Virus record (IMG/VR): IMGVR_UViG_3300023181_000082
Span: 1 to 22,636 of that record
DNA from: a virus
Reading direction: 5' to 3' (one strand)
DNA length: 22,636 nucleotides
Shown here: piece after piece, positions 2,768-22,623 of the stretch
Layout of the letters: each line of letters opens with the position of its first letter
Position numbering within the stretch: the first letter of the stretch is position 1
Position numbers and translations under genes: made by a program
Notes under the pieces: model-generated
What the model saw: the letters and a program-made list of their open reading frames with translations, nothing else
The model's database searches: none
Told to the model about the DNA's origin: nothing

Positions 2768-2787
2768 GCCCTATATGGATAATCAAA
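2766..2787 (+). promoter_or_regulatory. Repeated promoter-like motif, copy 1
   Basis: ATGCCCTATATGGATAAT (2766-2783) followed by CAAA. The 18-mer recurs exactly at 9832-9849, and CCTATATGGATAATCAAA recurs at 14913-14930. All three copies are intergenic and on the + strand; this one is 22 bases before the tail fibre start codon and next to its ribosome site. The most economical reading is a promoter for a phage-encoded single-subunit RNA polymerase. The GGATAAT core also resembles a sigma70 -10 box, but I find no good -35 here. The motif does not match the T7 consensus. Confidence 0.55.
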
Positions 2788-2808: not shown

Positions 2809-3642
2809 TTGGCTTATTCAACAGTCACTATTCCTGGAGATGGCGTAACTACGCTGTTACCGGTTAACTTCGCTCTTGGGAGTATTTCTGTTAATGATAT
2901 CACTTGCCGAGTAGGCGATGAGGTCGATGGCTCAGGTAATCCCACATACAGAACATTCCATTTTCAGTCAGCTAACCTTATCCAAGTAGATGGTCCGCCT
3001 GCTGCTGTAGGTAAGAACTATACATTTGTACGTACTGTAGATGCAGATGAGCTTATTGTAGATTGGGAAGATGGCGAACCTATTACTGGTGTTAATCTGA
3101 ACACTGCACAGAAGCAGTCTATCATGCTAGCGCATGAGGCTCTCGATGCAGCAGACAGAGCAATGAAAGTACCAGTCGGGTATTCTGGATATGTAATGAA
3201 TGCAGGTATTATTGGAGACTCTATTCTAGGGTATTACAATAATAAAGTAGATAGGATTGTAGGTTTTAAACCTTTTATGCCAAATAACAGTATCCTTGGA
3301 TATGTTAATGGTACAATCGTAGATGTAATGACTATCCCTGATTTCACTACATACTATAACCTCACTATCGCTGCTAGGGATCAGGCTCAGAGTGCTGCTG
3401 CCAGTGCATATAACTATTACATCTCTGCATACAATGCTAGTGTTATAGCTGCTAACAGTGCAACTATTGCTGTTAATGCTAGAGACGAGGCTACTACACA
3501 AGCCGGCAGGGCTGCTATCCTTGTTAATGCTGCTAGTGCAGCTTGGGTAGGTTATGCGCCAGGTACGTTCTATGACTTAGGTAGGGCAGAAGATGACATT
3601 CAACTATTCGCGACTGATCTTGGTCGTGCCGAAGCAATATAA
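2809..3642 (+). CDS. Tail fibre protein, T7 gp17 N-terminal domain type (short)
   Basis: 277 aa. The TTG at 2809 is the start because AATAAGGAG lies 7 bases upstream and the N-terminal domain begins at once. Residues about 1-115 have the pattern of the phage T7 tail-fibre N-terminal domain that docks on the tail: a beta-rich segment, then ELIVDWEDGEPITGVNLN followed by a helix of the QKQSIMLAHEALDAADRA type. Residues about 190-250 are an Ala/Asn/Ser-rich heptad region typical of a trimeric coiled coil. The protein is about half the length of T7 gp17 (553 aa) and lacks an obvious receptor-binding head, so it looks like an adaptor, with the next gene carrying the receptor-active part. Family assignment is firm; the adaptor role is inferred. 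Confidence 0.82.
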   Translation: MAYSTVTIPGDGVTTLLPVNFALGSISVNDITCRVGDEVDGSGNPTYRTFHFQSANLIQVDGPPAAVGKNYTFVRTVDADELIVDWEDGEPITGVNLNTAQKQSIMLAHEALDAADRAMKVPVGYSGYVMNAGIIGDSILGYYNNKVDRIVGFKPFMPNNSILGYVNGTIVDVMTIPDFTTYYNLTIAARDQAQSAAASAYNYYISAYNASVIAANSATIAVNARDEATTQAGRAAILVNAASAAWVGYAPGTFYDLGRAEDDIQLFATDLGRAEAI

Positions 3643-3652
3643 GTGAGGAAAT

Positions 3653-4915
3653 ATGGCAACTCAAATTAGTCAGCTAAAAGGTACGGCTGCTGTCCTTAAT
3701 ACCAAGACCTTTAATAATGGTGTAGTGGTAGTAGATGAGACAAACAAGAGCCTTAGGGTGCATGATGGTGCAACGCTTGGCGGTACTCTGCTTGCAAAGG
3801 CACAGTCGGCTAATGGTGCTACTATTATCTTCGAAGGTGATAGTATTACCCATCACTTGAATGCTGATATTGTAGCCAATGGATTTGCTTATCTCTTTAG
3901 CAACATGTCATGGGCTAGCTCTAAGAAGGCATTCTATAACTTCGCTCAAGGTGGTAATCAAGTATCTGATCTTGCTGGTCGTTATGCGTCTCTAGTATAT
4001 CCTCATCGTCCTACTGTTAATGGTGGTGATGGTGGTCCTAAGTCGTACCTGTTCATTCTTATTGGCACAAACGACTTTAACTTCTATCAGAACTCGTGGG
4101 CTACATACCAGACAGCACTGCAGAACTATATTAACACAGCTAAAGCTGACGGCTTTACAGTTGTGCTTAGTACTATTCTCCCTACTACTGGAGAGTTTGC
4201 TACTGGTACTCGTTTGCGTTGGGAAACTGCTAACCAATATATTCGTTCGAATGGCTTTGGTGTTGCATACGTAGTAGATTATGCTAGTATTCTTAGGAAT
4301 GCTAATGACCTTACTATGTTTGCCGATGGATTGCATCCTAACAATGCTGGTCATATGCTGCTGGCACTTTATCTTAATGCTTACATGACGGCCAATGGCT
4401 TGCCTGTATCTAATTATGATAATGATATTACAGCATCGCAATGGAAAGTTCTGGCTGTTAGGACTTTGGTTAATCAGGGTGTGTATCATCCTAATCTCGG
4501 TGACTACGATGAACTGCATATTAGCGGTCTACTGTACCCGCAGACTAACCTAAGTAAGATCAGTATGAATTTCTCTGGTACAGGCGGCGTTACAGTTCAA
4601 AATCTTGCATATCAGAAGACAAAGACTGTAAGTACTACGGCTACACCCACTGCTGGTACTGTAAGCGACGGTGTAATGCCTATTGCCGACGATGTAGGTT
4701 CTAACATTAACTTTGCTTGTGATTTCGATGTGTACATTAAGAACTGGCGGGCTGCTACATATACTAATGTGACCTTCCGGTCGTCATATGGTGCTGCTTC
4801 GGGTCGTCCTAAGATTGATGCTACATATCAAGTTCAACAGAACCTTTCTATGGATACGTTCCGTATTCTGGAAGTCCTGAATGGCACGTATACTGTACGT
4901 GGCCTGAGATACTAA
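3653..4915 (+). CDS. SGNH/GDSL-type esterase tail protein with Mtd-like N-terminus
   Basis: 420 aa, starting 10 bases after the fibre gene behind GAGGAAAT. Residues about 5-50 (ending LRVHDGATLGGTLLAK) match the short N-terminal module common in phage tail proteins, like the N-terminal domain of major tropism determinant. The SGNH hydrolase core follows: block I EGDS with nucleophile Ser64, block II Gly100/101-Asn102, block III IGTND with Asn140, and block V DGLHPN with Asp225 and His228. A beta-rich C-terminal region of about 150 residues may bind the receptor. Such virion esterases remove acetyl groups from capsule, O-antigen or exopolysaccharide. The catalytic residues are complete, so enzymatic activity is likely; the substrate is unknown. 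Confidence 0.85.
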   Translation: MATQISQLKGTAAVLNTKTFNNGVVVVDETNKSLRVHDGATLGGTLLAKAQSANGATIIFEGDSITHHLNADIVANGFAYLFSNMSWASSKKAFYNFAQGGNQVSDLAGRYASLVYPHRPTVNGGDGGPKSYLFILIGTNDFNFYQNSWATYQTALQNYINTAKADGFTVVLSTILPTTGEFATGTRLRWETANQYIRSNGFGVAYVVDYASILRNANDLTMFADGLHPNNAGHMLLALYLNAYMTANGLPVSNYDNDITASQWKVLAVRTLVNQGVYHPNLGDYDELHISGLLYPQTNLSKISMNFSGTGGVTVQNLAYQKTKTVSTTATPTAGTVSDGVMPIADDVGSNINFACDFDVYIKNWRAATYTNVTFRSSYGAASGRPKIDATYQVQQNLSMDTFRILEVLNGTYTVRGLRY

Positions 4916-9448: not shown

Positions 9449-9485
9449 GCTATTAGTCTGCTACATCCTGTATAGTTATTCCAGT

Positions 9486-9522
9486 CTCTACCAGTGTAAA
9501 AGCTGGTAGGGATACAATTTTT
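9486..9522 (+). terminator. Terminator-like hairpin after the late genes
   Basis: CTCTACCAG (9486-9494), 8-nt loop, CTGGTAGGG (9503-9511) form a 9-bp stem with one T-G pair. ATTTTT (9517-9522) follows after 5 bases. It lies 37 bases beyond the stop of the last late gene. The gap between stem and U-run makes it less than ideal for intrinsic termination, but the place is right. Confidence 0.5.
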
Positions 9523-9831
9523 CGTGAGGGTATCTAACAAACAACCGCGAGCAAGTTCCCCCATAGCCCCATCGAGAAACGCAAGTCCTTATAATATGCC
9601 GACAATGCCAACTGACATTCATCTAGCCTATGTCCAGCCTATGACGGTATAGCCGGAGGGTAGCACCTCTTATATGGCTTTAGCTGTTACATGTCTATCT
9701 CCTATGGTTATAGCTAGGATTAGCTAGCTTGTATCCGGGCATCTATATCCCTTATCGGATTAGAGCCGGTTGTCTGTCCTTGCTTAGATCATAGTGATTT
9801 GGCTTAGTCAATAGCCGAGATACAGCATTCT

Positions 9832-9853
9832 ATGCCCTATATGGATAATAAAC
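9832..9853 (+). promoter_or_regulatory. Repeated promoter-like motif, copy 2
   Basis: ATGCCCTATATGGATAAT at 9832-9849 is identical over 18 bases to the copy at 2766. It overlaps a small hairpin (GCAT, TCT, ATGC; 9826-9836), and a partial inverted echo, TATCCATAT, lies at 9902-9910. No gene follows for 960 bases, so transcription from here would cross the A-rich stretch and all six inverted repeats. It could serve replication priming or the leader array. Confidence 0.5.
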
Positions 9854-10004
9854 ATACCCTAACCGATATCGTTTGGTATCAGTACCACTATCGAAGATAG
9901 CTATCCATATATCAATATAAATAGAATATAATAGATATAGAACTATATAAGAACATATAATAACCACCCTATATACTGATGCACCATATAGTAAGAGAAT
10001 GAAT

Positions 10005-10068
10005 ATACATAGATCAATACATAGATATCACATAGATAGATATAGAGAATACATAGGAATACATAGAC
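10005..10068 (+). repeat. Helically spaced ACATAG short repeats (iteron-like)
   Basis: Five ACATAG copies start at 10007, 10019, 10030, 10051 and 10061, mostly within ATACATAG(A/G). The steps are 12, 11, 21 and 10 bases, close to one or two turns of the helix, so the copies face the same side of the DNA. They sit in the A-rich stretch of the gene-free junction. T7 has its own short repeats near its ends, used in concatemer processing or packaging; a replication-origin or protein-binding role is an alternative. The A-rich composition raises the chance rate of such words, which limits confidence. Confidence 0.5.
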
Positions 10069-10187
10069 ATATAGCCGATAGAAATGAATAGGATATAGAT
10101 AGCTATAAGCTGGATATAATCTAGATAGAAATAAGATAATGAAATCAATGATATATGAGATAATTGGGTATCTATTCATTTTATCAG

Positions 10188-10216
10188 TTGACGGATTGAA
10201 TGAGATAGTAGATATT
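10188..10216 (+). promoter_or_regulatory. Candidate sigma70 early promoter 1
   Basis: TTGACG (10188-10193), a 17-base spacer and GATATT (10211-10216). The predicted start, near 10223, is just ahead of the first inverted repeat. The position at the start of the early region fits a host-polymerase promoter such as T7 A1-A3. A further TTGACT lies at 10256 with only a weak TATGGC 17 bases on. Confidence 0.5.
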
Positions 10217-10236
10217 CAAATCACACAAGACGGAAG

Positions 10237-10333
10237 GCACTTAGCCAACTAGCTCTTGACTAGCTTAGCTAGGGATATTATGGCTCTTAATAGAGCTTGA
10301 CAAGGTAGGCCACAGTGGCTTATAGCTAAGTGC
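10237..10333 (+). other. Structured element A: closed by a perfect 9-bp stem, three inner hairpins
   Basis: GCACTTAGC (10237-10245) pairs with GCTAAGTGC (10325-10333). Inside are CTAGCT/AGCTAG (10249-10254 with 10267-10272), GGCTCT/AGAGCT (10282-10287 with 10292-10297, one G-T pair) and TAGGCCA/TGGCTTA (10306-10312 with 10316-10322, one G-T pair). This gives a cloverleaf-like four-way fold of 97 nt. It is not a tRNA: arm lengths and loop sequences do not fit. Promoter 2 lies inside it, so it could act as DNA rather than RNA. Confidence 0.5.
10297..10326 (+). promoter_or_regulatory. Candidate sigma70 early promoter 2
   Basis: A perfect -35 box TTGACA (10297-10302), an 18-base spacer and TATAGC (10321-10326). 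The predicted start, near 10333, coincides with the 3' end of structured element A, so a transcript would begin just before element B. This is the best host-type promoter in the window by eye. Confidence 0.55.
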
Positions 10334-10352
10334 ATATAGGTAATGGCTGTTA

Positions 10353-10439
10353 GCCGCTGGGATTACAACCAGTAGATAGTGCGAGTAACGTACTGTCCTT
10401 AGGAACCGGTCAATATAGCTACCTAGCCGATTGAGCGGC
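10353..10439 (+). ncRNA. Structured element B (candidate leader RNA fold)
   Basis: GCCGCT (10353-10358) pairs with AGCGGC (10434-10439). Inside is a 9-bp hairpin GATAGTGCG/CGTACTGTC (10375-10383 with 10389-10397, two G-T pairs, loop AGTAA) and a weaker TTAGG/CCTAG arm (10399-10403 with 10422-10426). It contains TACCTAGCCGA (10420-10430), which also occurs in the structured element at 15656. No match to a known RNA class is recognised. Confidence 0.42.
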
Positions 10440-10453
10440 AAAAGGTTATCCAT

Positions 10454-10504
10454 CCATATACTAAGGGCGCGTTAATAACGCCTATGTAAATCCTTAGTAT
10501 ATGG
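10454..10504 (+). ncRNA. Structured element C: perfect 13-bp inverted repeat
   Basis: CCATATACTAAGG (10454-10466) and CCTTAGTATATGG (10492-10504) are perfect inverted copies, enclosing a second inverted repeat GCGTTA/TAACGC (10469-10474 with 10476-10481). The arms carry TATATGG, part of the repeated promoter-like motif, in both orientations. It may be an RNA hairpin, a DNA cruciform or a palindromic protein-binding site. Confidence 0.55.
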
Positions 10505-10506
10505 CA

Positions 10507-10575
10507 CAGCACAATCTATCAGTCCGCTCTCAACGGCCGCATGGGTATGGTAACGGTTTAGCCGGGATTGTGTTG
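10507..10575 (+). ncRNA. Structured element D (candidate leader RNA fold)
   Basis: CAGCACAATC (10507-10516) pairs with GATTGTGTTG (10566-10575), 10 bp with one G-T pair. Inside, CGGC (10534-10537) pairs with GCCG (10561-10564). An alternative pairing, CTCAAC (10529-10534) with GTTGAG (10572-10577), would break the closing stem, so two competing folds are possible. Confidence 0.4.
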
Positions 10576-10697
10576 AGATATAGAGCTACTAAGCAAGGTA
10601 GCTGGACTATTGAGCCATTAAGGAATTATCACTCTTAACCGTAGGATAATCCAAGGCTTAACTTATCCAGTCTCTAAGCTGAACTAGCCTATATCTC
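10575..10697 (+). ncRNA. Structured element E: 9-bp closing stem with three inner hairpins
   Basis: GAGATATAG (10575-10583) pairs perfectly with CTATATCTC (10689-10697). Inner arms are AGCTACT/GGTAGCT (10584-10590 with 10597-10603, one G-T pair), TTAAG/CTTAA (10618-10622 with 10634-10638) and GGATAA/TTATCC (10644-10649 with 10663-10668). The 123-nt layout repeats the closing-stem-plus-three-arms plan of element A without sharing its sequence. Confidence 0.48.
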
Positions 10698-10702
10698 TTG
10701 TG

Positions 10703-10801
10703 AGGTTAGTTGATAGGATATCAATACAAGATACCGAACGCATTGCGATGTAGGTATGAGCAGGGAGCGTAAAGACCACTGTATATCCTATCTACTAACC
10801 T
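10703..10801 (+). ncRNA. Structured element F: 18 of 19 bp closing stem just before the first early gene
   Basis: AGGTTAGTTGATAGGATAT (10703-10721) pairs with the segment at 10783-10801, with one T-T mismatch. Inside, ATACC/GGTAT (10731-10735 with 10753-10757) encloses CGC/GCG (10739-10741 with 10745-10747). The 3' arm ends 4 bases before the GGGAG ribosome site of the first early gene. A long imperfect duplex here fits an RNase III processing site like those in the T7 early transcript; a separate RNA product is also possible. Confidence 0.55.
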
Positions 10802-10817
10802 AACGGGAGTGTTTATC

Positions 10818-14910: not shown

Positions 14911-14930
14911 GTCCTATATGGATAATCAAA
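14911..14930 (+). promoter_or_regulatory. Repeated promoter-like motif, copy 3
   Basis: CCTATATGGATAATCAAA (14913-14930) is an exact 18-base match to the copy upstream of the tail fibre. It begins 4 bases after the stop of the last early gene and 122 bases before the gene at 15033. The position at the early/middle boundary fits a phage-polymerase promoter that turns on the replication and lysis genes. Confidence 0.57.
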
Positions 14931-15032: not shown

Positions 15033-15551
15033 ATGTCTGATGAAGCATTGCTGGCCGAACTCGGCCTTGGTACTACCGCTACTGAAACTGCTACTCCGGC
15101 TGTAGGCGCTGAGCCTAACGCTGCTGAGAACGTTGCAGCTACAGAAGGTGCAGAAACTGCCGAGAAGGCTAAGCGCGCTCCCCGCGTAGAGATTAAGATC
15201 AATAAGACTTCGACTGGTGTCGGCCTTCTGCCTGCTCGTGTTGCCTTTGGTGGTGGCGGCGGTCGTCAGGGTAGCAAGTATCCATTCGAAGACCTTACTG
15301 CTCCTACGAAGAATGAAGCTGGTGAAGTTACCGGCTACTCGTTCTTTGACATTCTGCTTTCTGATGTAGAGAATGCAGATGAGAAGAAGCTGCAGGGTGC
15401 TATCCAGGCTGCTGTTGCTCAGAAGAACAAGCAGGAAAAGGAAGCTGGCACGAAGACGCATTATGTGTCCCGTACTAAGCTCGATGATGCTGGCGCATAC
15501 ATCGGCGCTTCTGTGTATCGTGTTGACGATACGATTGAAGACGCTGAATAA
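15033..15551 (+). CDS. Acidic-tailed middle protein in SSB position, 172 aa
   Basis: ATG behind AAAAAGGAA. The N-terminal 50 residues are Ala/Glu/Thr-rich and acidic. A basic segment (KAKRAPRVEIKINK) leads into a glycine patch (VAFGGGGGRQGSKYPFEDL), then GYSFFDILL, a charged helix and a C-terminal YIGASVYRVDDTIEDAE. The GSKYPF...SFF...VYRV layout recurs in small phage proteins of unknown function. The place (first middle gene, after the early cassette) and the acidic tail would suit a single-stranded-DNA-binding protein like T7 gp2.5, but I do not see a clear OB fold, so the name is withheld. Confidence 0.7.
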   Translation: MSDEALLAELGLGTTATETATPAVGAEPNAAENVAATEGAETAEKAKRAPRVEIKINKTSTGVGLLPARVAFGGGGGRQGSKYPFEDLTAPTKNEAGEVTGYSFFDILLSDVENADEKKLQGAIQAAVAQKNKQEKEAGTKTHYVSRTKLDDAGAYIGASVYRVDDTIEDAE

Positions 15552-15576: not shown

Positions 15577-15606
15577 GCTAGCAGGTTCTTAATTGAGCCT
15601 GCTAGT
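15577..15606 (+). other. Strong 12-bp hairpin
   Basis: GCTAGCAGGTTC (15577-15588), loop TTAATT, GAGCCTGCTAGT (15595-15606), with two G-T pairs. It lies 26 bases after the stop of the 172-aa gene and only 6 bases before the large structured element. No U-tract follows, so it is more likely a processing or protective structure than an intrinsic terminator. Confidence 0.6.
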
Positions 15607-15612
15607 CGTACT

Positions 15613-15762
15613 TATTGATACCGAGAGGCAGCGAAGGGATAAGGGTGTTTGCAGATACCTAGCCGAATGGCGCTACCTTTACTACTGCAATAGTGAATGC
15701 ACGATGTAGGCTTAATTACCTACACGGAGCAGATTGCTGTTTCTCGGTATCAATATGTTTTT
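15613..15762 (+). ncRNA. Candidate structured RNA closed by a 22-bp stem and followed by a U-tract
   Basis: Bases 15613-15634 pair with 15734-15755 over 22 positions, all Watson-Crick except three G-T pairs; the outer 14 bp (TATTGATACCGAGA with TCTCGGTATCAATA) are perfect. Inside are TTGCAG/CTGCAA (15649-15654 with 15685-15690), enclosing a small GCC-GAAT-GGC hairpin, and TGTAGG/CCTACA (15705-15710 with 15719-15724). A U-tract (15758-15762, then CGTTTT) follows the stem directly. The element fills the 234-base gap between two middle genes and has no good ORF. It could be a stable phage RNA, or an unusually large RNase III/terminator structure. No known RNA class is recognised. Confidence 0.62.
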
Positions 15763-15785
15763 CGTTTTAACCCAAGGAGAGTGAC

Positions 15786-16214
15786 ATGACTGCTATAAAG
15801 CTTGCAGGATTTGCTAATTGCGTGTCTGATGCCGACAAGCGGAAACTGTATGATGCACTCATAGCCTTTAGGGTTGCAGGAGTACAAGTGCAGCCTAATT
15901 CCATTGTTGGTAATTCTGGCGTAATAGAAATGATACGCACAGTTGCGTGGTGTAACGAGAGATTTACCTATTATCTTTGGTACTTTCATGATGCTTTGTA
16001 CGGCAAACCTTGGGAAGAGCAGGTAAAGATCATTGCGGCTGAGGTAGGGCCGACACCAGAATTTCACCCACTTATCACATGGGCATGGTTGACCTATGAT
16101 GGGTGGGTTAAGTATGTGCAGGTACATAAATCTGCACCTATAGACGTAGAAGCATATATTAATGCGCACCTCACTGCTACAAATCTGACTGAGGTGCATC
16201 TAAAGGAGTTCTAA
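15786..16214 (+). CDS. Unknown middle protein, 142 aa
   Basis: ATG at 15786 behind AAGGAGAGTGAC, one of the strongest ribosome sites in the window, right after the structured RNA element. The protein is soluble, mixed alpha/beta and rich in Trp and Tyr (RFTYYLWYFHDALYGKPWEE; PLITWAWLTYDGWVKYVQVH). In T7 the endonuclease I gene lies between the SSB and lysozyme genes, but I see no conserved nuclease motif here, so no function is assigned. Confidence 0.7.
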   Translation: MTAIKLAGFANCVSDADKRKLYDALIAFRVAGVQVQPNSIVGNSGVIEMIRTVAWCNERFTYYLWYFHDALYGKPWEEQVKIIAAEVGPTPEFHPLITWAWLTYDGWVKYVQVHKSAPIDVEAYINAHLTATNLTEVHLKEF

Positions 16215-16216
16215 AC

Positions 16217-17125
16217 TTGGATAAGACAGTACCAGAAGCAGCCGCACACCTGCTAGACTTTATCTCTGTGCATGAAGGTCCGAAGTACACAAGCATTAGC
16301 TCTAACAAGGAAAGCAAGCTGCCTAAGCCGGTAACTAGCTACACTGTAGACGAATTGCTTGCTGACGCGCCTACTTGGCGTAAGAAGTATGGCTGCCTTA
16401 GTTCGGCTGCTGGTCGTTATCAGATCATTACCAAGACACTTAAGAACCTCAAGGAAGTAATGGGCCTTAAGGGTAGTGAGAAGTTCAACGAAGACTTGCA
16501 GGACCGTATGGGTATGCAGTTGCTTCGATTCCGTGGCTATGATGCCTTTATGGCTGGTCAGCTTACTAAGGAACAGTTCGCTAAGAACCTTGCTCAGGAA
16601 TGGGCTAGCTTGCCTGTACTGGCTGGTACTAAGAACTACACTGGTAAGAATATCCAGCGGGGCTCTAGCTATTATGCAGGCGACGGGATGAATAGTGCTG
16701 GCGTCACCGCAGCAAGCTTTGAGCGTGCTTTGTCCGTCAACGGCACCAAGGTTGCCAAGGCTAAGACAATCCCCGTCACCGACGCTCTGCCGCCTATTGT
16801 GGCCCTATCTGAGCCGGAGGCGACCAAGGATATTGTATCCCCCGAAATGCTAGAGGCAAACCTCGATGTCACTAAGACGCTCACTGCATCGGCTAATGTT
16901 AAGCCAGCGGACAGTAATACAGTCATTGCTACAAAGGCTGCAACAATCGCAAGTGCTTCAGTTGCTGTTGTTAGTGGTGCTGGTGCTGCCGCTCAGTCCG
17001 TTACCGATTGGACCCCTGTTATTGGGCTGTTTAGTGCTATTAGTACTTATGGTCCTTATGTCGCTGCTGCTATTGTGGTTGGCGTCGTTCTGGTAGTAAT
17101 CGCCAAGAAAGTATGGGGCAAATGA
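16217..17125 (+). CDS. Endolysin, lambda R-like glycosidase with C-terminal membrane segment
   Basis: 302 aa. The start is the TTG at 16217, 2 bases after the previous stop, with AAGGAG 8 bases upstream. Residues 7-155 resemble phage muralytic enzymes of the lambda R type: catalytic-type Glu in ISVHEG (Glu20), then SSAAGRYQI (62-70), a QDRMGMQLL helix and FAKNLAQEWASLP (121-133). It should cut the glycan strands of peptidoglycan. Residues 155-235 form a polar linker with GC-richer codons (bases about 16670-16880). Residues about 238-256 and 277-296 are hydrophobic (YVAAAIVVGVVLVVIA), so the enzyme is probably membrane-tethered. T7 lysozyme is a different family (amidase). Catalytic family likely; membrane role inferred. 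Confidence 0.82.
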   Translation: MDKTVPEAAAHLLDFISVHEGPKYTSISSNKESKLPKPVTSYTVDELLADAPTWRKKYGCLSSAAGRYQIITKTLKNLKEVMGLKGSEKFNEDLQDRMGMQLLRFRGYDAFMAGQLTKEQFAKNLAQEWASLPVLAGTKNYTGKNIQRGSSYYAGDGMNSAGVTAASFERALSVNGTKVAKAKTIPVTDALPPIVALSEPEATKDIVSPEMLEANLDVTKTLTASANVKPADSNTVIATKAATIASASVAVVSGAGAAAQSVTDWTPVIGLFSAISTYGPYVAAAIVVGVVLVVIAKKVWGK

Positions 17126-17429: not shown

Positions 17430-17571
17430 CGAGTGTGGTCCTAATGACGTGGTGATCCGTTACACACCGGAACAGATAGATGCTATGTCAGACCAGCAAG
17501 TCAGTGATAATCTAGCATACAATGAAAGCCTTGAGAAGCGCGGGTGCGCTGTTCCCAATAAATCCAAATAG
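17359..17571 (+). CDS. Rz1-like outer-membrane lipoprotein spanin (o-spanin)
   Basis: 70 aa, starting with GTG at 17359 behind AGGAGG 9 bases upstream. The signal peptide MQKSSLFLLLLLVSGCAS has a clear lipobox (VSGC) with Cys16 as the lipidated residue. The mature part contains two or three cysteines and few prolines. The first 71 bases overlap the Rz-like gene in a different frame, as in classical Rz/Rz1 pairs. The lipoprotein would span the periplasm with the i-spanin at lysis. Confidence 0.82.
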   Translation: MQKSSLFLLLLLVSGCASVGPKTNECGPNDVVIRYTPEQIDAMSDQQVSDNLAYNESLEKRGCAVPNKSK

Positions 17572-17578
17572 GTGCAAT

Positions 17579-18976
17579 ATGTCTGCAGTATTATATCAAA
17601 TCAAAGCATGTGCTAAAGATGCTGGAGTAACTGGCTTTGATCAATGGAATGTTATTGATCTTAGCAAGTATGGATTTAATTATATTGCAGGCGGTTGCTA
17701 TGGAGCAGTTTATAATCACCCTACTGATCCTAATAAGGTGATTAAAGTAGGTATGAAAGATGGCGATGGGTGGCCTAAATATGCCACCTATTGCTTGCTC
17801 AATAAAGAAAATGATGACGATCATCTATTGAAGGTGTACTCATTGCACTTGTTTAAGGATATGTATGTAGCTGAGATTGAACGTCTTGAAACATATAATT
17901 ATTCTGATGACCACTATACCGACGCGCAATACGAGCATGTTAAAATGCGTGCTAACGGCCCACTAGAGCTAGTTCGTCTTTGGAATACAATAGGTGATTA
18001 CAATGACATGCATCTCGGTAATGTTATGCTTAGAGGTAATACTCTAGTTGTTACAGATCCTTATGGCTACGTTACACCAAAAGAAGCTATCTATGATGTT
18101 TCATTCGGTATGGGCCAAATAGACAAATACTCACTTAGTAAGCACTTGGAAGACAAGCGGCTTTTAAAGGAGCTACAGAGTGCAGAAAGAGAAGTGGTTA
18201 ATCACCGCGCAATCTCTGCCCCTCGGCGGCAAGAAGAAGGTATTGCACTGTGGCCAAAGCCCATCTATGACAGTGTACAACACGCTCAAAGGATGGCGGG
18301 GATACTGCCACAGATGCCACGAGACTGTTTGGGAGTCCCGACAATCGATGCTATCATTAGCACAATTGTCCAAGCCATTAGAAACGGCAACAATAACCTC
18401 GCGTTTGCCTGCGGATTACAGTTCGAATTTCGTGGACACGTCCCTTATATCCGTAAGTGCCCTGCTGTGGTATGCTCAAGCAGGTATATCAGAGACTATG
18501 AGAGAAGAATACAAGCTAGGGTACAGCGAGAGCTTGCGCCGGGCCGTGATCCCTTTATACATGCCAACTACGCAGAACTTGAACGGCGTATGCTTGCGAA
18601 AATTGGTGGCTGGGGACTTAGGCCCGAAGTATTTGGTTCGGCAAATAGAGCCATTGCCTTTCCTGTCTATAGAGACCATTTCCTCGTGGCAGATACCGGA
18701 CCCGCAATTCAGCCTGATAATAACGGAGGACGCTCTATCCGCTATAAGGGTAGGACAATTCCTGCCAAGTGCATCGCTTCTAGGGACGTCCTTAAGCGAC
18801 AAGCTGATGCCGATGTTAAGCCACAGACTGCCAAACAACAAGCCAGTAGGCATATGGCTGGACCCGGACAAAGCAGGCAACAAAGGCACTATAAACTTAT
18901 GCAAGCGCCTATCCCTCCTTGGCATAAGCTGGTCGATAATATCTTCGACAAAGGACCCAAAGAACCACACGGATAG
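17579..18976 (+). CDS. T7 gp0.7-like protein kinase with long overprinted C-terminal extension
   Basis: 466 aa from ATG 17579 (the in-frame ATG at 17522 lies inside the Rz1 gene). Residues 37-60 read AGGCYGAVYNHP.. then VIKVGMK: a glycine-rich loop and ATP-binding Lys56. They align closely with T7 gp0.7 ([22 protein letters not shown]). The catalytic loop NDMHLGNVML gives Asp143 and Asn148, and VVTDPYGY gives the metal-binding Asp160; T7 has FDMHSGNIM and ITDP. gp0.7 phosphorylates host RNA polymerase, RNase III and other proteins and shuts off host transcription. The kinase core ends near residue 200. The remaining 265 codons overlap the primase gene in another frame and have no recognised domain. 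The location beside replication genes rather than early genes is unusual. Confidence 0.82.
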   Translation: MSAVLYQIKACAKDAGVTGFDQWNVIDLSKYGFNYIAGGCYGAVYNHPTDPNKVIKVGMKDGDGWPKYATYCLLNKENDDDHLLKVYSLHLFKDMYVAEIERLETYNYSDDHYTDAQYEHVKMRANGPLELVRLWNTIGDYNDMHLGNVMLRGNTLVVTDPYGYVTPKEAIYDVSFGMGQIDKYSLSKHLEDKRLLKELQSAEREVVNHRAISAPRRQEEGIALWPKPIYDSVQHAQRMAGILPQMPRDCLGVPTIDAIISTIVQAIRNGNNNLAFACGLQFEFRGHVPYIRKCPAVVCSSRYIRDYERRIQARVQRELAPGRDPFIHANYAELERRMLAKIGGWGLRPEVFGSANRAIAFPVYRDHFLVADTGPAIQPDNNGGRSIRYKGRTIPAKCIASRDVLKRQADADVKPQTAKQQASRHMAGPGQSRQQRHYKLMQAPIPPWHKLVDNIFDKGPKEPHG

Positions 18977-19055
18977 AGAAATATGGAAGTACTTAACCGG
19001 AGATACGGTGACACCCGTGCAAGATTACGCGCCGCCTTCGAACGTAGTATTATAG
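18180..19055 (+). CDS. DNA primase (zinc-binding and Toprim domains)
   Basis: 291 aa. The start is the GTG at 18180 with AAAGGAG 7 bases upstream, inside the kinase reading frame. The N-terminal zinc-binding region has KKVLHCG (His23/Cys24) and WRGYCHRCHE (Cys43, Cys46). The Toprim fold has LIITEDALSA (Glu183) and GIWLDPDKAG (Asp228, Asp230), the metal-binding residues of the catalytic site. It makes RNA primers for lagging-strand synthesis. Unlike T7 gp4, primase and helicase are separate genes, as in some other T7-supergroup phages. The 3' end overlaps the HNH gene by 73 bases. About 91% of the gene is also open in the kinase frame. Confidence 0.88.
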   Translation: MQKEKWLITAQSLPLGGKKKVLHCGQSPSMTVYNTLKGWRGYCHRCHETVWESRQSMLSLAQLSKPLETATITSRLPADYSSNFVDTSLISVSALLWYAQAGISETMREEYKLGYSESLRRAVIPLYMPTTQNLNGVCLRKLVAGDLGPKYLVRQIEPLPFLSIETISSWQIPDPQFSLIITEDALSAIRVGQFLPSASLLGTSLSDKLMPMLSHRLPNNKPVGIWLDPDKAGNKGTINLCKRLSLLGISWSIISSTKDPKNHTDREIWKYLTGDTVTPVQDYAPPSNVVL

Positions 19056-19468
19056 TAAATGATTGCTTATTGTACCCAGGAGAAGACGGTAAATACACGA
19101 CTATACGTAATGAGCATGGTAAACCAGAAACATTACATAGAATATCTTATAGATTTAATAAGGGAGATATACCTAAAGATAAGATAGTTAGGCATACTTG
19201 CGATCATACTAGATGCTGGCGCCCTTCACATCTTATACTAGGAACGCATTTATCTAACGCGCAGGATAAGATGGAACGAGGAAGAGATATAGTATGTATT
19301 GGCGAGAACCATAAACTATCAAAATTAACTGACGATCAAGTAGACGAAATACGCAGATTAGCTCCTACCATGATGCGTAAAGACCTGGCCGCGAAGTTTG
19401 GTGTTAGCTATGATACCATGTATACAATAGTAACATATAAAACCAGAAGGAAACGGGCAAATGATTGA
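18983..19468 (+). CDS. HNH homing-type endonuclease with C-terminal HTH
   Basis: 161 aa. ATG at 18983 with only a weak ribosome site, 6 bases after the kinase-frame stop and inside the primase 3' end. The HNH domain (residues about 26-95) includes LHRISYRFNKG, IVRHTCDHTRCWRPSHLILG with paired Cys and His, and GTHLSNAQDKMERGRD. The C-terminal part (ENHKLSKLTDDQVDEIRRL, then LAAKFGVSYDTMYTIV) is the helix-turn-helix DNA-binding module usual in phage HNH homing enzymes. Codons are clearly A-rich compared with the primase, consistent with recent arrival. The last 8 bases overlap the helicase start, so it sits tightly between primase and helicase. Confidence 0.88.
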   Translation: MEVLNRRYGDTRARLRAAFERSIIVNDCLLYPGEDGKYTTIRNEHGKPETLHRISYRFNKGDIPKDKIVRHTCDHTRCWRPSHLILGTHLSNAQDKMERGRDIVCIGENHKLSKLTDDQVDEIRRLAPTMMRKDLAAKFGVSYDTMYTIVTYKTRRKRAND

Positions 19469-20729: not shown

Positions 20730-20962
20730 AACTATATCAGATGTATGGCGGCACTGTAGTAGATTTAGAAGCTATTGTTGCAATTCAGCCCATAACTGAA
20801 AAAAGACATCCTGAATACGGAATTATTATGTGCGGCTTTAATGTTATATTTAAGCTGGCAAATGGACCTGTTTGGATAGAATTTGGTACAGTATCTAAAT
20901 ATGCAAGTGATATTGCTATTGAGGCTAGAAACCAGCTACTGAAAGAATGGCAAGCTCTATGA
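20726..20962 (+). CDS. Unknown small middle protein, 78 aa
   Basis: The ATG overlaps the helicase stop (ATGA) behind GGAGAAGG. The protein alternates strands (KLYQMYGGTVVDLEAIVAIQ; YGIIMCGFNVIFKLANGPVW) with a C-terminal helix (IAIEARNQLLKEWQ). The codons are A/T-rich. It ends with an ATGA overlap to the phosphoesterase gene. Its coupling on both sides suggests a small partner of the replication genes, but no family is recognised. Confidence 0.66.
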   Translation: MKLYQMYGGTVVDLEAIVAIQPITEKRHPEYGIIMCGFNVIFKLANGPVWIEFGTVSKYASDIAIEARNQLLKEWQAL

Positions 20963-22623
20963 ACCATAAACAAATCAGTGATTACATCACAGGTAGTACA
21001 CACAAGCATGTGACACCTATGATGAGAGCGGCTCGAATGGCAGGGCATTCCTTTACTGATAAAGAATTTAAGAGGGTATATAACCACCTACGATCAGGTG
21101 ACACAGGCCCTATGGCCACAGTGTCCAAAGCCGCTATAGCCCCCTCCCTGCCCCCTGAGGTTAAGCCATCATCTGGTGGTAAGGTTAAAGCACCGGATCA
21201 TTTCCGGGCACAAGCCAAGGGTACTAAGTTTATCCTTACATCGGCGCAGAACAACACTAAGGTTCATGCTGGCTTCTGGAAAGCCCTTAACCGTATGGCT
21301 GATAAAGTCGGTGCGCAGATTATGGTTAGCCGTTTCAGCTATAACAAGAATGGCTGGGGTGGGGTCACTAAGGATAGCAAGACTAACGCTAGCGGAGACG
21401 ATTTGTGGTATGACCCAGCCATTATCCCTTATGTGCAGAACGACCAGATTAAGCTTGCCAAGGATTTCGTATTCTGTGCCGAACTCGATATATTGCCAAC
21501 TGCTAAAGATCCACTTACGGGACTTGAGAATTACACGGCGACGAACTCGGCTGCAGTACACCATGCAAAAGTCCACATGCGAAGCATGGCAGGACTGCTA
21601 TCAGGGCAGCCTCAACGGTTCCTTTATACCACAGGGACGTGTACGCTACGTAACTACATCGAAAGGCGCGCTGGTCAGATTGCGAGTTATCACCATGTCT
21701 ACGGAGCACTCTTTGTTGAAGTAGATGAAGACGGCGACTGGTTTGCTAGACAGATTAATGCCAGCGATGATGGTAGCTTCTGGGACTTGAATGAGTTCTA
21801 TCATCCGAATGATAAAGGATGGTCTGTATTTTATGCAAGCGACGCTAATAAGATCATTAACTTGGGTGATATTCATGCTGAGAAGATGGACCCTGAGGCT
21901 TTTGCTGGAGCTATGGATTTTGTTCGTACTATTAAGCCTAGTCATATCGCTATCCATGATTTGCTAGACTTTGAAGCTCGTAACCACCATAACATCAAAG
22001 ACCCGTTCTTTAGGGCCGATCAGCACTTCAATGGTATGAACACTGTTGAAGGTAATATTAAGCACGCTGTTACGCTACTTGAAGAAATCGGCCGGAACAG
22101 TGGCGCTGAGTTGCTGCTAGTACGATCTAACCATGACATGGCTTTCCAGAAGTGGCTTAGAGAGGCCGAGATTTCTGGCGATCCCGCTAATGCTAGATAT
22201 TATCATGCTATGATGTATCAAGTATATCTTGCTATTGAGCGTGGGCAATCAAGCTTCGATATATACCAGTATGCTATTAATCTAGCCGCAGATAGTCTTC
22301 GTCTGGATACAGATAAGTGGGTTCATATTAAGGAAGATGACAGCTATGTCTTGCATGAGATCGAACTTGGTTTACACGGCCACTTGGGTCCGAATGGGGC
22401 CAAAGGATCACCTAAGGGATATCGTCAACTTGGTAGAAAGCTTAATACTGGACACACGCATAGTGCAGGTATTATTGACGGAGTATGGACAGCAGGCGTC
22501 TTGGCGTCCCTCAATATGGGATACAATAAAGGCCCGTCATCTTGGTCACACAGTCATATCCTGACACATGAGAATGGTAAGCGCCAGATGATTACACAGC
22601 GCGGAAAGAAGTGGAGAGCATAA
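20959..22623 (+). CDS. Calcineurin-like metallophosphoesterase phage protein, 554 aa
   Basis: The start at 20959 is chosen for the ATGA overlap; an in-frame ATG at 20947 would add four residues. The N-terminal 300 residues include a helical basic segment (MMRAARMAGHSFTDKEFKRV), a Pro-rich linker and a domain of unknown type. The C-terminal half has the metallophosphoesterase motif order: NLGDIHAEK (about 301), IAIHDLLDF (about 331), LLVRSNHDM (about 387), LHGHLGPNG and NTGHTHSAG. Glycines usual in the second and third motifs are replaced (HDLLD, SNHD). Such proteins near phage replication genes may act as DNA- or nucleotide-processing phosphoesterases; the substrate is unknown. Confidence 0.78.
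   Translation: MNHKQISDYITGSTHKHVTPMMRAARMAGHSFTDKEFKRVYNHLRSGDTGPMATVSKAAIAPSLPPEVKPSSGGKVKAPDHFRAQAKGTKFILTSAQNNTKVHAGFWKALNRMADKVGAQIMVSRFSYNKNGWGGVTKDSKTNASGDDLWYDPAIIPYVQNDQIKLAKDFVFCAELDILPTAKDPLTGLENYTATNSAAVHHAKVHMRSMAGLLSGQPQRFLYTTGTCTLRNYIERRAGQIASYHHVYGALFVEVDEDGDWFARQINASDDGSFWDLNEFYHPNDKGWSVFYASDANKIINLGDIHAEKMDPEAFAGAMDFVRTIKPSHIAIHDLLDFEARNHHNIKDPFFRADQHFNGMNTVEGNIKHAVTLLEEIGRNSGAELLLVRSNHDMAFQKWLREAEISGDPANARYYHAMMYQVYLAIERGQSSFDIYQYAINLAADSLRLDTDKWVHIKEDDSYVLHEIELGLHGHLGPNGAKGSPKGYRQLGRKLNTGHTHSAGIIDGVWTAGVLASLNMGYNKGPSSWSHSHILTHENGKRQMITQRGKKWRA

Follow-up and report, generated by a model that had tools for sequence, protein, structure and literature searches.

In a T7-like phage, a structured RNA element of 143 nt lies between a gene of no assigned function and the endolysin region, at positions 15613-15755 of a 22,636-base virus record that was analysed over its whole length and is called the window here. 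Its long closing helix is conserved across related phages, whereas the core inside the helix is exchanged between them. On balance we favour that the element is an RNase III processing site and leaky terminator at an mRNA boundary, and its exchangeable core would probably be freed there in the form of a compact RNA. The element represents a structured RNA family that is not in Rfam, carries a putative covarying tertiary contact and occurs in cultivable phages (isolates RHEph02, RHEph08, Palo and Alfirin). It makes testable the idea that mRNA processing sites serve as phage carriers of released, exchangeable RNAs.

Genomic setting and fold of the element

The gene set of the window comprises an internal virion protein, a tail fibre, a terminase, an endolysin, a kinase, the DnaB helicase and a T5 A1-like protein. 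This marks it as part of the genome of a T7-like phage (Autographiviridae) with relatives among Rhizobium and Agrobacterium phages. Those nearest to it among annotated phages are Rhizobium phages (those of Cuernavacavirus, and Palo) as well as phages of Agrobacterium, for instance Alfirin. The upstream neighbour of the element is a 172-aa gene (15033-15551, + strand) of the phrog_15747 family (E 3.6e-41), which has no assigned function and is also present in the Rhizobium and Agrobacterium relatives; the predicted structure of its protein is of low confidence (pLDDT 61.6) and gave no fold match. Downstream follow a 142-aa gene without family (15786-16214, +), the endolysin gene (16217-17125, +) and a T7 gene-0.7-like kinase (17522-18976, +; phrog_15752, E 1.9e-17). 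Further along, an HNH endonuclease ORF (18983-19468) stands immediately 5' of the DnaB helicase gene and overlaps it, and a T5 A1-like DNA transfer protein (20947-22623; phrog_1745, E 4.6e-183) is encoded in this T7-like phage. The stretch of about 1.2 kb that separates the late from the early genes (9450-10690) contains no clear genes, is AT-rich and filled with repeats, and perhaps represents an early control region or the ends of the genome.

The motif CCTATATGGATAATMAA is found in three exact copies in the window (2770-2786; 9836-9852, with one free position; and 14913-14929), compared to 0.42 expected, and these copies are probable promoters of a phage RNA polymerase. In RHEph02, a phage promoter has been predicted just upstream of the phrog_15747 gene (PMC11475235). 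The exactly recurring copy CCTATATGGATAATCAA (14913-14929, +) is located at the matching place in the window.

The segment 15613-15762 has a minimum free energy of -61.1 kcal/mol, while shuffled sequences reach -35.3 +/- 3.8 kcal/mol (z -6.8; 0/200). Its closing helix P1 consists of 22 consecutive pairs between a 5' arm (15613-15634, with a mismatched extension from 15610) and a 3' arm (15734-15755), both on the + strand. P1 is the top long-range stem of the whole window, scoring 48.5 versus 40.5 in the best of 40 shuffled windows. Inside P1, the core contains several short helices on the same strand. The strands of P2, AAGG (15634-15637) and CCUU (15676-15679), covary with ACGG/CCGU and ACUG/CAGU in relatives, and the first base of P2 (15634) competes with the innermost P1 pair. 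P2 encloses hairpin H1, GGUG[UUUGCAGA]UACC (15644-15659, loop hexamer 15649-15654), which is supported by covariation and loop complementarity, and a small hairpin GCC[GAAU]GGC (15662-15671), which comes from the minimum free energy fold and is present in the window only. Next stands H2, UACUA[CUGCAA]UAGUG (15680-15695, loop 15685-15690), likewise supported by covariation, and then H3 (UGUAGG/CCUACA, 15698-15731), which is taken from the fold. Relatives also have a third hairpin after H2 that differs in sequence from H3.

An initial annotation of the window had described the 22-pair closing stem, a separate 12-bp hairpin ending 6 bases upstream, a TTTTT tract shortly after the element and a ribosome site behind it. 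Each of these is present: the hairpin, which has no good U tract, forms the 3' end of the upstream gene (15577-15606, +), the U tract occupies 15758-15762 (+), 3 nt after 15755, and the Shine-Dalgarno AAGGAG (15774-15779, +) precedes the ATG at 15786. The two inner arms of that description were an undercount, as the core holds more helices (H1, H2, H3 and the short P2), and the complementarity between the H1 and H2 loops had been missed.

The H1 loop UUGCAG and the H2 loop CUGCAA of the window are exact complements. Kissing cores of this kind are carried by six lineages, namely the window, Palo, RHEph08, N37, I38 and Alfirin, with H1 loops UUGCMG and six-nucleotide H2 loops CKGCAA (TTGCMG with CKGCAA as DNA) located 21-30 nt apart. 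Given this loop size and spacing, the two loops could pair within one molecule. Over the six lineages, 98% pairing is seen in P2, H1, H2 and the loop-loop contact, and 10 of the 17 pairs are changed on both sides (0/500 shuffles), in an alignment whose automatic version missed the window and Alfirin and whose helical segments were aligned by hand, which favours structure. Shuffling of the window core produced the kissing pair in 52 of 20,000 sequences and the family loop sequence in none. The complementarity and covariation of the two loops indicate a tertiary loop-loop contact. The core alone reaches a z of only -1.3, so that the significance of nested folding sits in the closing helix; the core is backed instead by loop-loop pairing and covariation. 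Among viral contigs, the motif AGCKGCAACTGAACYGG had 24 matches, of which 23 were without the helix and judged to be chance and the remaining one was RHEph08 itself. A motif scan of bacterial genomes gave six matches, about the number estimated by chance; none has the structure, thus giving no sign of a host source.

Conservation of the closing helix and exchange of the core

BLAST of the element against phage records gave no match, and the elements of relatives were located via their upstream phrog_15747 protein neighbour. In most relatives, a helix of 21-27 positions stands in the gap 3' of this gene and closes over a core of 37-110 nt; this helix length holds in every element, whatever its core. 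In some more distant relatives, that gap is occupied by an ordinary terminator rich in GC (L053-L056, SI01) or by another small structure. The separate hairpin upstream of the element is nearly unchanged in L034, and a comparable hairpin is present in most relatives.

Across eight Rhizobium-lineage alleles, 97.2% of P1 cells are paired and 11 of the 22 pairs show changes on both sides (0/500 shuffles), and no slid version of the alignment comes near the observed pairing and covariation. Pairing in close relatives, on which the initial annotation had let its reading depend, is retained with compensatory changes. A covariance model built from relatives, which it had also proposed, recovers the element: with four relatives and the window excluded, the model's own pairs covary beyond every shuffle, and in a search of 1.3 Mb it finds the window with 33.5 bits (E 8.7e-5) and Alfirin with 37.3 bits. 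With the opposite strand of the window the score is 22 bits, so that about 11 bits derive from more than the helix, although the match is mostly through P1. Rfam contains no match to the element at gathering score; with the threshold relaxed to E 10, only chance matches appeared and nothing relevant.

The strand that is under selection can be read from the mismatches. In 19 helices, found with a symmetric score that treats both strands alike, the coding strand has G-U in 38 cells versus A-C in 4 (P = 6e-8, an optimistic value because the elements are related to each other). As G-U is tolerated on the coding strand and A-C is not, pairing of the + strand RNA is selected. This argues against a DNA-level element, i.e., a cruciform, a replication origin or a mobile element with inverted-repeat bounds, which exchanged contents between long inverted repeats might suggest and which we regard as very unlikely since the loop-loop pairing is conserved and the location constant as well.

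While the helix persists, the cores differ. In RHEph02 and RHEph08, 160 upstream bases including the outer ten helix bases are identical and 160 downstream bases are 94% identical, yet the inside is only 44% identical and both helix arms have changed together. This pair represents a natural swap experiment. Similarly, L036 and Palo are 97% identical upstream versus 52% inside. Such comparisons show that cores are swapped between phages as cassettes with the clamp helix retained. Since cores are exchanged and the helix is constant, the helix would provide a constant function and the core carry a second one. The shortest cores, of 37-54 nt, belong to L036, RHEph02 and the second element of L034. 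The upstream protein of L034 is 83% identical to that of the window, and two long-helix elements are arranged in tandem there (3585-3815), the second with another core. The first contains a T-arm-like TTCGAAT hairpin within its core; identity with a tRNA was rejected for it, as this motif stands alone and cmscan gave no tRNA. The Paso core is tRNA-like (24.9 bits, just under gathering score) and in NMeng1 a tRNA (43.6 bits) stands directly before the helix. The window element has neither a tRNA covariance match nor an ARAGORN call.

Only two long-range stems of the window beat all 40 shuffled windows, P1 and the stem of a second element of like design (10695-10809, +; score 48.0 versus 40.5 for the best shuffle). 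It has 27-nt arms around a 61-nt core and precedes the first early ORF (10819), with the ribosome site GGGAG contained in its 3' arm. Counterparts are found in L048 (292-415), Palo (1580-1675) and RHEph02 (1921-2009), and compared to L048 the outer helix is kept and the inside is not. Both elements of the window are intergenic and stand before genes, i.e., the design recurs within the genome.

Probable processing at an mRNA boundary and its alternatives

Only one feature is shared by all elements, the helix of 21-27 positions, and it is consistent with RNase III processing. RNase III of S. meliloti does not cut 16-bp dsRNA and degrades 30-bp dsRNA (PMC6121014). The observed helix lengths are within a plausible range for this enzyme, with 22-26 bp being an interpolation between 16 and 30 bp. 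In T7, early and later polycistronic mRNAs are processed by RNase III at intergenic helices, and the kinase T7PK raises RNase III activity (PMC4858673). Hence, the T7PK-like kinase of the window, a possible RNase III booster by analogy, counts for this reading, as does the second helix before the early operon because T7 has several such sites. The initial annotation had mentioned an RNase III site combined with a terminator as the sober alternative to a stable non-coding RNA. This alternative turned out to account better for the invariant helix, as quite different cores stand inside it. Of the non-coding RNA itself, the conserved structured RNA is strongly supported by its position in relatives, compensatory changes, G-U bias and the lack of an Rfam match, and the reading as a whole only partly.

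We infer the following course of events. Phage RNA polymerase would start at the promoter near 14913 and transcribe the phrog_15747 gene and the element; promoter, gene, hairpin, element and then the lysis and replication genes would form one transcription unit. The RNA would fold so that a helix of 22-25 bp closes a compact core, which in the window is of the kissing-loop type, and the core might draw the helix arms together. Rhizobial RNase III would then cut the closing helix on both strands. Such cuts would leave a structured 3' end on the upstream mRNA and a new 5' end, near the ribosome site, on the downstream lysis and replication mRNA. Moreover, with both arms cut, the folded core would come free, an RNA of roughly 100-125 nt. 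In the Rhizobium lineage the U tract would add partial termination. Conserved loops and exchange suggest that the released core may act in trans; the short cores of some alleles speak against one task common to all. In this course of events, RNase III cleavage and termination as well as a function in trans are inferences.

Several observations speak against RNase III processing. The conserved kissing loops with their near-invariant sequence exceed the needs of an RNase III site, and tRNA-like cores would invite RNase P as well. At the place of the window's kinase, Palo encodes a primase, and by annotation RHEph02, RHEph08 and RHEph09 do as well, so that kinase and element are not tied. Furthermore, the gap holds an ordinary terminator in some relatives (L053-L056, SI01).

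Alternatively, the element might encode a stable phage RNA acting in trans, with the core as the product (a decoy, an antitoxin-like RNA, an anti-defence RNA or a host regulator) and the helix and U tract forming only its ends. This is possible, if less than probable. In its favour, the loop sequence is conserved and the kissing loops covary in phages whose neighbouring protein is 35-54% identical, and cassettes are swapped in near-identical backgrounds, as expected of diversifying selection. T4, moreover, has stable RNAs of comparable size, one of which bears the T arm of a tRNA. However, the helix also holds cores that differ strongly or are very short (37-54 nt; L036, RHEph02, second element of L034), and the element is without a dedicated promoter or a known partner. 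Somewhat more speculatively, the elements might form an allelic cassette family, in which a fixed clamp of RNase III length carries interchangeable folded RNAs of the kissing-loop, tRNA-like and other kinds. Once released, these would work in trans against the defences of the host or against rival phages, and some would assemble via their complementary loops.

That the element merely terminates the upstream transcription unit appears improbable. In the Rhizobium lineage a U tract follows immediately on the helix, and L053-L056 and SI01 have ordinary terminators at this place, which would agree with it; in the window the tract begins 3 nt after 15755 behind a loop of about 100 nt. But a separate hairpin is already located 3' of the upstream gene, the U tract is missing in about ten of the compared elements (e.g., Alfirin, Atu_ph02, X3_9, Paso and NMeng1), the remaining 25-30 nt have no other visible promoter for the downstream genes, and a 100-nt kissing-loop core is unnecessary for a terminator. 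Still less can be said for a protein- or ligand-binding switch in the 5' leader of the downstream gene. The element does belong to the leader that precedes the 142-aa gene or the endolysin gene in the relatives, with the ribosome site a few bases after the helix in Alfirin, Atu_ph02 and NMeng1, but the ribosome site of the window is not sequestered, and the core is wholly changed between RHEph02 and RHEph08 in front of downstream sequences that are nearly the same.

Comparison with known phage RNAs and further long helices

Searches of the accessible literature found no described RNA in these phages. The closest parallel to the favoured processing site is provided by the T7 RNase III sites (R1.1 and others), which are likewise intergenic double helices in mRNA of Autographiviridae with an expected effect on mRNA ends and a T7PK-like kinase encoded nearby. 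R1.1 differs in being a hairpin of 60 nt that an internal loop interrupts (PMC6121014), whereas 21-27 bp close a core of 37-110 nt in the element, and this core has its own putative tertiary contact and is exchanged. Intrinsic terminators share the GTTTTT after the helix in the Rhizobium lineage, but the loop of the element is huge and folded and other lineages lack the U tract. T4 species 1 RNA (rnaC) is a stable phage RNA of about 140 nt, and its T arm recalls the tRNA-like cores of some relatives; in contrast, the window core is not tRNA-like, and rnaC lies within a tRNA cluster.

The initial annotation had also named the packaging RNA of phi29 as one of similar size, seeing no sequence basis for identity. 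A closing helix and two hairpins with complementary loops are indeed common to both, and in pRNAs loop sequences vary while the structure stays (PMC5340915). Identity with pRNA was rejected, because the window encodes T7-type packaging genes (large terminase, phrog_17672/phrog_38; small terminase, phrog_891), no Rfam family matches and only the complementary loops are shared, which moreover are 6 nt long and only 21-30 nt apart in the element.

Other long helices were observed in the relatives. In L058 (5188-5369) and Palo (2939-3106) the gene that follows has its start codon and ribosome site inside such a helix; in Palo this gene is the holin. A perfect 21-bp helix in L061 (4377-4475) surrounds what seems to be the 3' half of a tRNA in antisense; since an integrase is encoded by related phages, this locus may be an attachment site.
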